A DNA stretch of 28,964 nucleotides from a virus. The stretch covers positions 1 through 28,964 of the IMG/VR virus record IMGVR_UViG_3300042261_000837; one strand, given 5' to 3'. Shown in pieces: positions 24,479 to 28,964 of this stretch. Every line of letters begins with the position of its first letter. Position 1 is the first letter of the stretch. Both the position numbers and the translations under genes were made by a program. A model generated the notes under the pieces. That model made no database searches. It saw nothing but the letters and a program-made list of their open reading frames with translations, and was not told the origin of the DNA.

Positions 24479-25094
24479 TAGTGTTTAACAATGCTACCAT
24501 TTCTTTCTCAATTTGAGGAACATATGTTTTATCTATTATTTTAATTTTTCTTTTTGATTCATTTAATTCATTTTCATAATCATATGCATACACAATATTT
24601 TTCGTTGTTTTCACTTGAACAGAATTTCCATCTTTTAGATTGAAAGTTTCAATACTTGAACTTGGTAAACTTGAATATGTACCCGAATCAATTTCATATC
24701 TTTTAACTGAAATAGTTCTTGTTACAGAATCGGTTTTTGTTATTATTTTTTCATAATGATGTATTTGTGTTGTGGCGTTTGTAAATGAACCATATTTGCT
24801 ATTGATATAAGATTCAAAATTAGTTGATGATAAAACCCAATCATAATACGGATCAATTATGTCATTTGCCAATAAGATAATCCAATGTTTATTTGGACTA
24901 TCATAGTATTTTGATGCGATTATTTCTGGCGTTTCTCCATCTTGCACATCATACAAATAATACACTAAAGTTTGATTTTTTATACTTGAGAGCATATTGA
25001 CACGAGATAATATATCCGTGACAATTTTCCTCTGTACTGGATTTTCTCCAGTTATACTATAACCAACTAATGTGAAATTTTCAAAAAATGCCAT
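24471..25094 (-). CDS. 53: Baseplate wedge protein gp53
   Basis: 207 aa (T4 gp53 is 196). Diagnostic segment at residues about 44-90: 'VYYLYDVQDGETPEIIASKY', then 'YDSPNKHWIILLANDIIDPY'. This is a LysM-like fold seen in gp53, which clamps adjacent wedges together. The C-terminal part ('YEKIITKTDSVTRTISVKRY', 'YENELNESKRKIKIIDKTYV', 'QIEKEMVALL') fits the family. The start shares the TAATG overlap with the gp48 stop and has AAGGGA upstream. Confidence 0.93.
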   Translation of the reverse strand: MAFFENFTLVGYSITGENPVQRKIVTDILSRVNMLSSIKNQTLVYYLYDVQDGETPEIIASKYYDSPNKHWIILLANDIIDPYYDWVLSSTNFESYINSKYGSFTNATTQIHHYEKIITKTDSVTRTISVKRYEIDSGTYSSLPSSSIETFNLKDGNSVQVKTTKNIVYAYDYENELNESKRKIKIIDKTYVPQIEKEMVALLNTNV

Positions 25095-26089
25095 TAGTAT
25101 CCCTTGTCTATCTTTTCTCTTGTAATTATGTCTAGTTCTTTAAATGATAATCTCATTCTTGTTTGTACGGGCATACCGTCATAAAAGGTGCTCCATTGTC
25201 CAGATGCTGCATAATCAACTTGAACATTTTCTAAAACACAAGAATTTATTCTTGGTATGTTTGTATTTTCTACAAAACTACCATCATTTGTTTTTCTCAA
25301 AAATGAAATATCAAAGTCTGATGGTGGAATAAACACAAGTCCTTCTAAGATTTGTTCTGGCGCTGAATGTCTTCTAAATTCATTAATTATGTCCCAAACA
25401 ACATTAGCTTCTTGCTCATCTCTTGGAGAAAACATGAAATCGAAATTGAATGTTCTCAATGTCGGAGATACATAAAGAACTTCAATAATTGGATTTAGTG
25501 CAAATCCCATAATTTGAGCGCCAGTTTTAGCTACACTTGTTGCTTGTCTATCAATACTCGATAATACTCCCAAAGCTCTTGGTCCCAATAAAGCCGTTAA
25601 TGCAACTGCTGCGCCAGCAGCACCTAAACCAGCTCTTAAAGTTCCAATTGTAGATTGTGCAGCAGATACACCAGTTGCTGCAGCAGTACCACCCAAACCA
25701 AATTTATCTATTAAACTAGGAGTTTCATATTGTTGTTTTGCATCATATACTACAGTTTCTGGAACATATAATGAAATAGCTCTTGCAACACGAGTTGTTC
25801 TTCTAGTCAAACCTAATAATTGATTTGCTTTAGTCGATTTATACCTAGGCGCTTGACCTTGTGCTATTATTTCTCGGCCGCGCGTAGATCCTGCTGACGG
25901 TTCTCCCGGTGCAGTTTCTATCGGCTGACTTAAATCCTTGCTATCTTGATGTACATTTATATTAAATAATAAAGCATGAGACAAAGTTTCTATGTCAGTA
26001 GGATAATTGAAAGAAGAAAACCCATATTTGCTACCCTGAAGTGTGGCTAAGGGTGCACCCCCTGCTCTAGGGGAAAGTCTACTCGACAT
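25094..26089 (-). CDS. 48: Baseplate tail tube cap gp48-like
   Basis: 331 aa, close to T4 gp48 (364). First gene of the minus-strand train. Features: 'TLSHALLFNINVHQDS' (35-50), an extended linker (51-95), 'ARAISLYVPETVVYDAKQQY' (102-121), a Gly/Ala-rich hydrophobic stretch (about 131-178), then the tube-like beta domain 'ALNPIIEVLYVSPTLRTFNF' (197-216), 'FMFSPRDEQEANVVWDIINE' (218-237), 'VQTRMRLSFKELDIITREKI' (308-327). gp48 and gp54 are tube-protein relatives that connect hub to tail tube. The alternative gp54 is less likely because the plus strand holds another tube-like gene. It lies 26 bases from a TATAAATA late motif, with AGGAA before the start. Confidence 0.78.
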   Translation of the reverse strand: MSSRLSPRAGGAPLATLQGSKYGFSSFNYPTDIETLSHALLFNINVHQDSKDLSQPIETAPGEPSAGSTRGREIIAQGQAPRYKSTKANQLLGLTRRTTRVARAISLYVPETVVYDAKQQYETPSLIDKFGLGGTAAATGVSAAQSTIGTLRAGLGAAGAAVALTALLGPRALGVLSSIDRQATSVAKTGAQIMGFALNPIIEVLYVSPTLRTFNFDFMFSPRDEQEANVVWDIINEFRRHSAPEQILEGLVFIPPSDFDISFLRKTNDGSFVENTNIPRINSCVLENVQVDYAASGQWSTFYDGMPVQTRMRLSFKELDIITREKIDKGY

Positions 26090-26096: not shown

Positions 26097-26115
26097 TTCC
26101 TAGTGTTATTTCTTA

Positions 26116-26123
26116 TATTTATA
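26116..26123 (-). promoter_or_regulatory. T4-type late promoter (TATAAATA) for the minus-strand baseplate train
   Basis: The minus strand reads exactly TATAAATA, the consensus T4 late promoter element used by the phage late sigma factor gp55 with sliding-clamp activation. It lies 26 bases upstream of the gp48 start, the first gene of the train. Confidence 0.65.
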
Positions 26124-26561
26124 ATGTCATACAAGGGCCGATTCATACCAACAAATAGCAGCAAATATCGTGGAGACCCGACAAGAATCGTATATCGTAG
26201 CTTGTGGGAACGAAGGGTTATGGTGTTTCTTGATAATAATCCCTCTATTGTTCAATGGTCATCCGAAGAAATAATAATACCATACTTATCTCCCATTGAT
26301 CGCAAAGTGCATCGTTACTTTCCCGACTTTTACGTTAAAGTAAAAGATAGAACAGGAGTAGTACGTGAAATGATTTGGGAAATAAAACCCAAAAAAGAAT
26401 CTGCACCACCACAAAAAAGATCAAGAATAACACAAAAATACATTACAGAAGTTATGACATGGGGTGTTAATGAAGCAAAATGGAAAGCTGCACAAGAATA
26501 TTGTTTAGATAGAAATTGGCAGTTTAAAGTTCTTACAGAGGATGATTTAGGAATCAAATAA
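26124..26561 (+). CDS. 4: Head completion protein gp4 (PD-(D/E)XK nuclease fold)
   Basis: 145 aa from the ATG at 26124 (T4 gp4 is 150). A longer frame from a GTG at 26103 is possible but adds only seven hydrophobic residues; 'MSYKGRFIPTNSSKYRGDP' is the natural start. Nuclease-fold motifs are visible: Glu29 in 'YRSLWERRVMVFLDNNP', Asp68 in 'RYFPDFYVKV', and Glu86-x-Lys88 in 'MIWEIKPKKES'. 'WSSEEIIIPYLSPID' is also typical of the family. gp4 is needed to finish DNA-filled heads so tails can join. No clear ribosome site is seen. The gene is divergent from gp48, with a 34-base gap to it. Confidence 0.9.
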   Translation: MSYKGRFIPTNSSKYRGDPTRIVYRSLWERRVMVFLDNNPSIVQWSSEEIIIPYLSPIDRKVHRYFPDFYVKVKDRTGVVREMIWEIKPKKESAPPQKRSRITQKYITEVMTWGVNEAKWKAAQEYCLDRNWQFKVLTEDDLGIK

Positions 26562-27941: not shown

Positions 27942-28688
27942 ATGCCATTACCAAAAATTGATTTGCCTACATACGAATTTGAGTTGCCATCATCTGGCAA
28001 AAAAATAAAGTTTAGACCATTTTTGGTCAAAGAACAAAAAATTCTACTAATGGCGCTTGAAGCAGGAAAAGAAGCAGATGTTATCGGCGCCGTAAAACAA
28101 ATAGTGACAAATTGCATAGTTGAAGAAAACTTTGATGTAAATGATATGTCAGCATTTGACATTGAATATTTTTTCATCAATCTTAGAGCAAGATCAATCG
28201 GCGAAAAAATGGCTCTAAATTTCAAATGTAAAAATATAGTAGAAGAAAAAGAATGCGGACATAACATGCAAGTTGAACATGACGTATTGTCTGCAAAAAT
28301 TGAAAAACAACCAGATCATAACAAAACAATATTCTTTAGTAAAGATGTTGGTGTTGTCATGAAATATCCATCTATGAAACTTGCTGAAAATCTAGTTTTG
28401 AAGGCCAAGGCAAAACAAAAGAATTTATCAGAAACAGAAATCGCAATGGATATGATTGTAGATTGTGTAGATTATTTCTTTGAAAAAGATAATATCTTCT
28501 ACATCAATGAAATGAGTCGTGAAGAAGTTAGAGATTACATAGAAAATATACCAAAATCAAGTTTAGATCAAATTGAAAAATTCTTTCAAACTATGCCAAC
28601 TGTCAAATCGTTGGTTGAACATAAATGCGAAAAATGTGGATTTGAACACAAAATACCCATTGAAGGATTAATAAGTTTTTTCGGCTAA
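27942..28688 (+). CDS. 26: Baseplate hub/tail assembly protein gp26-like (T4_baseplate family)
   Basis: 248 aa (T4 gp26 is 208). The start 'MPLPKIDLPTYEFELPSSGK' and 'KFRPFLVKEQKILLMALEAG' are the signature of the T4_baseplate family, assembly factors of the hub. Four Cys (96, 105, 229, 232) in 'NFKCKNIVEEKECGHNM' and 'HKCEKCGFEH' look like a zinc site joining the middle and the C-terminus. The ribosome site AAAGGA is good. The last codons are AGT TTT TTC GGC TAA, with a T TTT TTC slippery heptamer. A second product extended in the -1 frame is expected, as in lambda gpG/gpGT chaperones. Confidence 0.85.
   Translation: MPLPKIDLPTYEFELPSSGKKIKFRPFLVKEQKILLMALEAGKEADVIGAVKQIVTNCIVEENFDVNDMSAFDIEYFFINLRARSIGEKMALNFKCKNIVEEKECGHNMQVEHDVLSAKIEKQPDHNKTIFFSKDVGVVMKYPSMKLAENLVLKAKAKQKNLSETEIAMDMIVDCVDYFFEKDNIFYINEMSREEVRDYIENIPKSSLDQIEKFFQTMPTVKSLVEHKCEKCGFEHKIPIEGLISFFG
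28676..28682 (+). promoter_or_regulatory. Candidate -1 ribosomal frameshift site (T TTT TTC)
   Basis: The heptamer TTTTTTC sits in the X XXY YYZ register of the gp26 frame (codons TTT and TTC), two codons before its stop. A slip of -1 continues as CGG CTA AGC CTT GGT CAT GAA and stays open to a stop at 28880-28882. A weak 5-bp stem (28692-28696 with 28724-28728) lies 9 bases downstream. Confidence 0.65.
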
Positions 28689-28882
28689 GCCTTGGTCATG
28701 AAACATTGATGAATATCTATAGTACCAACTTTGCAATGATGCAGCATCATAAGTATAGTTTAACTGAATTGGAACAAATGATACCGTGGGAAAGAGATGT
28801 TTACATTGTACTACTAGTACAATACATCGAAAAAGAAAATGAAAGACTCAAGCAACAAGCAGCAGAAACGAAGAGAAAATAA
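28682..28882 (+). CDS. gp26 frameshift extension / small tail-assembly ORF
   Basis: Open in the -1 frame relative to gp26, giving 66 residues after the slip ('RLSLGHETLMNIYSTNFAMM', 'QHHKYSLTELEQMIPWERDV', 'YIVLLVQYIEKENERLKQQA'). If it is read as a separate gene, the first ATG is at 28709 (57 aa), but no ribosome site precedes it. The pattern 'MMxHHKYSLxELExMIPWERDxY' followed by an amphipathic helix rich in Glu/Lys is what the downstream part of phage tail-assembly chaperones looks like. The fusion with gp26 would run from 27942 to 28882. It is likely an assembly factor contacting the next gene's product. This reading is inferred. Confidence 0.75.
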   Translation, partial: RLSLGHETLMNIYSTNFAMMQHHKYSLTELEQMIPWERDVYIVLLVQYIEKENERLKQQAAETKRK

Positions 28883-28884
28883 AA

Positions 28885-28964
28885 ATGTCTATCAAACAAC
28901 ACATGGGTAAAAGTTATGCATTTGATGCATTGGCGCAAGGAAAAGGTCTTTGGAAAGAAATTAC
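28885..28964 (+). CDS. Start of a further gene (tape measure or hub assembly by position)
   Basis: The ATG at 28885 lies 2 bases after the stop of the frameshift ORF and opens 26 codons to the window end ('MSIKQHMGKSYAFDALAQGK', 'GLWKEI'). GAAGAG lies about 11 bases upstream. Too short to identify. In phages with a G/GT-type chaperone pair the next gene is usually the tape measure protein, so that is the leading guess from position alone. Confidence 0.5.
   Translation, partial: MSIKQHMGKSYAFDALAQGKGLWKEI

Follow-up and report, generated by a model that had tools for sequence, protein, structure and literature searches.

Is the short open reading frame (ORF) overlapping the 3' end of gene 26 a gene of its own, or is it reached from within gene 26 by a programmed -1 frameshift? 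We studied this question for a stretch of viral DNA of 28,964 nt (IMG/VR record IMGVR_UViG_3300042261_000837; in the following, the window), for which an earlier note made from the letters alone had proposed the frameshift. Given the evidence below, gene 26 and the short -1 ORF very probably form one gene with two products, i.e., a short (TAC-N) and a long (TAC-NC) tail-assembly chaperone, the latter being made via -1 frameshifting. The respective features are:

27942-28688, plus strand: gene 26, 248 aa, assigned as short tail-assembly chaperone (TAC-N) based on PF12322, phrog_150, hhalign and AlphaFold2
28662-28667, plus strand: GAAGGA, a weak form of a Shine-Dalgarno-like (SD-like) sequence 5' of the slip site, candidate frameshift stimulator
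28676-28682, plus strand: slippery heptamer T TTT TTC, in register (TTTTTTN in 91/94 non-redundant relatives)
28676-28882, plus strand: -1 frame with the predicted C-terminal domain (TAC-C, 'gp51'), based on phrog_634, the phrog_150 C-terminus and tblastn
28686-28688, plus strand: gp26 stop codon TAA, end of the zero-frame product
28885-28964, plus strand: start of a tape-measure-like gene, interrupted by the window end (phrog_58 match of the ORF at locus L008, see below)

The window switches strands at about 26.1 kb (26103-26561 / 25094-26089). Its minus strand holds baseplate and tail-fibre genes, and its plus strand those for head closure, a DNA end protector, a tail-tube-like protein, gp26/51 and the tape measure.

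The gp26 frame ends with AGT TTT TTC GGC TAA, i.e., a single sense codon (GGC) separates heptamer and stop. The X XXY YYZ register of tandem slippage fits T TTT TTC at 28676-28682. Shifted by -1, the codons from the slip point on read TTT (28676), TTT (28679) and CGG (28682), and the frame stays open for 66 codons after Phe-Phe until the TAA at 28880-28882 (68 codons plus stop when counted from the slip point). Register, reading length and the peptide LMNIYSTNFAMMQHHKYSLT within the -1 frame are therefore as the earlier note had described them. On its 5' side, the -1 frame of the window opens at -22, counted from the gp26 stop. Its earliest ATG is found at 28709, preceded by a TTG at 28706 and by no SD-like sequence.

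Conservation was assessed on gp26 relatives gathered from IMG/VR and annotated phages, which were reduced to 94 non-redundant ones (<85% nt identity over 210 nt). TTTTTTC is located exactly at -10 from the stop in 78 of the 94, while the few heptamers at -7 or -13 result from an earlier or later stop. Among the 91 heptamer carriers, the -1 frame is open across the whole domain in 90 and ends at a contig border in the remaining one. At other Phe-Phe pairs of the same genes, the heptamer occurs in 12/112 cases (Fisher p = 6e-45 vs. the slip site). The codon usage differs as well: the second Phe codon is TTC in 81/91 slip sites, while TTT is preferred elsewhere (702:355). In 13/94 relatives, the open -1 frame extends no further upstream than -13 or -10, counted from the gp26 stop (slip site or one codon earlier), which marks the slip site as the entry point. 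The combination of heptamer and open -1 frame is thus confirmed as real, widespread and far beyond chance. That is, the alignment of relatives proposed in the earlier note finds both the heptamer and the open frame 5' of the ATG to be kept.

Only three divergent relatives lack the heptamer. Acinetobacter phage Konradin has separate genes of the T4 type. In Salmonella phage Marshall (L096) and Vibrio phage D508 (L099), the run of six T is gone and a similar-looking -1 frame follows ATT TTC / CTT TTC, which suggests a non-canonical slip site. A scan for relatives seeded with an Ochrobactrum phage gp26 gave no matches.

We identified gp26 by its matches to PF12322 (T4_baseplate; E 2.7e-55) and phrog_150 (baseplate hub; E 2.6e-62). 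The -1 frame matches phrog_634 ('gp51') from residue 2 on (E 2.8e-27) as well as the C-terminus of phrog_150 (E 3e-5). Using the -1 frame from the slip point as tblastn query, we found 576 phage records, 544 of them with at least 80% query coverage, and the homology begins with the first residue read from the slip point. Within 43 aligned relatives, the positions F1, F2, L11, N18, Y27, P37, E39, R40 and Y43 are invariant. The C-terminal domain is modelled as three helices (pLDDT 78). For the -1 ORF, Pfam also gave Stealth_CR2, which was rejected since its score is far below the cut-off (18.8 vs. 39.4 bits).

To relate both products to T4, we built a profile from 90 in-silico fusions. Its alignment with T4/Konradin gp51 spans 229 columns and runs through the junction (hhalign probability 98.2%, E 2.9e-14), while T4/Konradin gp26 covers its N-terminal part only (probability 99.3%, E 8e-21). 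T4 gp26 and T4 gp51 also align with each other (93%, E 3e-7). Since gp51 matches the whole fusion and gp26 its N-terminal part, T4 splits over two genes what this phage encodes in one with a frameshift. The T4 genes 26 and 51 can thus be read as short and long chaperone forms, a reading that these alignments support. The abstract of Vladimirov et al. 2022 reportedly assigns T4 26 and 51 as chaperone genes and describes frameshifting as conserved in several T4-like groups.

The neighbouring gene was studied at locus L008, where gp26 and the -1 frame are identical to those of the window and which supplies the ORF interrupted there. This ORF matches the tail length tape measure protein phrog_58 (E 9e-10), and a tape measure gene is the usual neighbour of tail-assembly chaperones. 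From the fusion homology and the adjoining tape measure gene, we infer that gp26 represents TAC-N, the short chaperone, and that the long form, TAC-NC, is gp26-51. In S-PM2, the gene 3' of gp51 (L004:1640-3086) matches, over the part examined, ADP-ribosyltransferase families (PF01129, E 4e-6) and not a plain tape measure.

The AlphaFold2 model of gp26 is of good quality, with a pLDDT of 88.9. A Foldseek search of the PDB gave no significant match for this model; the HK97 chaperone 2ob9 was a weak match at rank 3 (E 1.9, prob 0.33, TM 0.22/0.46). Within a viral structure library, it matched baseplate-hub gp26 proteins and also the 'baseplate hub assembly catalyst' of Acinetobacter phage ZZ1 (E 1.4e-5).

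Slippage, its rate and the chaperone action are inferred from these sequences, and we propose the following course. Most ribosomes would terminate at 28688 and release gp26 (TAC-N, 248 aa, ...GLISFFG). A minority would slip by -1 at T TTT TTC, such that the P-site TTT stays TTT and the A-site TTC becomes TTT. These ribosomes would run on to 28882, which would give a fused protein of some 313 residues (TAC-NC, ...GLISFFRLSLGHE...). If lambda G/GT is taken as the model, TAC-N would coat the product of the adjoining tape measure gene, and tail-tube subunits would be recruited by the C-terminal domain. The slip rate is probably raised by an internal SD-like element upstream and, for the relatives from Synechococcus phages, by a hairpin just downstream.

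We evaluated both candidate stimulators against synonymous recoding. With regard to anti-SD pairing, the relatives show one sharp peak for 8-mers whose first base lies 18 to 14 nt 5' of the heptamer, where the mean dG goes down to -6.5 kcal/mol compared to about -0.5 around it. The element is usually GGAGG or GAAGG within the codons of a Glu-Gly pair, and many relatives have GGAGGG. Its Glu codon is GAG in 44/64 cases vs. 18/71 at Glu-Gly pairs elsewhere (p = 4e-7). The pairing exceeds that of recoded sequences for all groups including the window's clade, but not in control windows. Judged from these sequence comparisons, the internal SD-like element is under selection, while the window's own GAAGGA pairs no more strongly than its amino acids predict.

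For RNA structure, the picture depends on the lineage. In the 36 non-redundant Synechococcus-phage loci, the heptamer is immediately followed by a stable stem (mean z -2.7); the folding z is about 0 just upstream, and a weaker signal (z -1.5) is seen some 100 nt downstream. For the window and the clade to which it belongs, the same folding comparison finds no downstream structure (mean z of about 0 to -0.5). Within 45 nt of the heptamer, the Synechococcus-phage hairpins (e.g., L004, L155 and L007) fall into at least three designs that differ in stem register. RNAalifold on ungapped alignments of three groups found no common structure, because stems differ between sub-lineages; stems were thus scored by folding single sequences. 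A search of Rfam gave one chance match only, far below threshold. Taken together, we lean slightly towards a dnaX-like cassette for the T4-like chaperone frameshift, in which the SD-like stimulator is found across the superfamily, hairpins arose within the Synechococcus phages and the tuning differs by lineage. This stimulator analysis may be new relative to the literature, and the relatives offer a set of naturally occurring candidate stimulators that can be tested.

Could gp51 instead be a separate small gene, with its own translation or with termination-reinitiation at an ATG close to the stop of gp26? Public phage records annotate it that way or omit it: the C-terminal ORF is left unannotated in L006, L007, L092 and L094 and annotated short, from a late ATG, in L100, L093, L095 and L098, and none of the records inspected joins it to gene 26. 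The short ORF is thus easily missed or drawn as stand-alone, as the earlier note had anticipated. In addition, an ATG is located between -1 and +8 relative to the gp26 stop in 32/93 relatives, and re-initiation there could yield some separate gp51. For the other 61, however, the first ATG lies at least 23 nt past the stop, often within conserved sequence. An SD-like 4-mer precedes the first ATG in only 4/93 relatives, compared to 63/87 for the gp26 starts that served as control, such that the ATG at 28709 has, as claimed before, no conserved ribosome site. The -1 frame reaches well 5' of the first ATG, and the peptide encoded before any ATG (FFR-[IL]...) is conserved among the 43 aligned relatives, i.e., under selection. 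Moreover, T4 gp51 holds the counterpart of the complete fusion in a single reading frame. We thus consider a separate gp51 very unlikely; on this evidence, 'gp51' does not form a gene by itself in cyanophage genomes and those related to them.

Alternatively, the polymerase and not the ribosome could slip on the T run and thereby produce the fused frame (transcriptional slippage). A run of six T is present, and a few relatives (L033, L034) have eight. Polymerase slippage, however, would favour longer runs and has no need for a register, whereas most relatives show exactly six T followed by C with one codon register kept, and the selected SD-like element is one that acts on ribosomes. We rate this explanation as slightly less probable still than a separate gp51. 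Finally, both frames make up one protein, as would be expected if one gene had been split, either by an error in sequencing or by a frameshift mutation that arose recently. The conservation refutes this reading, since the same split is found in 90/94 non-redundant genomes from many habitats and hosts, and its probability is negligible. We therefore retain, as the most probable reading, one gene with two products linked by a -1 ribosomal frameshift.

With regard to known systems, the architecture is that of the lambda-type tail chaperones (G/GT), as the earlier note had put forward; the fusion corresponds to gp51, gp26 to T4 gp26, and the tape measure gene comes next. As proposed here, lambda makes two chaperones, the short gpG and the long gpGT, by shifting to the -1 frame close to where the first ORF ends, and the tape measure gene follows immediately. 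In contrast, the lambda heptamer is a different one (GGGAAAG) and gp26 is larger (248 aa); the likeness described here is one of architecture. It was also correct that the arrangement is not T4's own. While T4 gp26 is homologous to TAC-N and T4 gp51 aligns with the entire fusion, genes 26 and 51 of T4 are two separate genes on opposite strands without a frameshift.

An open literature search found no cyanophage paper that names a ribosomal frameshift at the baseplate hub. For T4-like phages, the frameshifted chaperone arrangement has already been described, and the window is a further instance. Respective passages of PMC10885494 cite Vladimirov et al. 2022 for T4-like phages that have one short gene plus a longer, fused one. 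As far as the accounts in PMC10885494 and PMC12846349 go, these T4-like tail-assembly chaperones (Vladimirov, Gautam & Davidson 2022, Virology 566:9-15) are the same gene pair, with similar poly-T frameshift signals in the TAC-N genes and T4 gp26/gp51 as the two-gene counterpart. Passages of PMC12846349 also describe the TAC locus of Vandenendeviridae/Andersonviridae (phage Adele), which has a -1 frameshift at a poly-T (GTTTTT) motif. This is another phage family, likened here by description, with a similar -1 poly-T signal. According to the same passages, its second ORF is usually mis-annotated as a separate gene.
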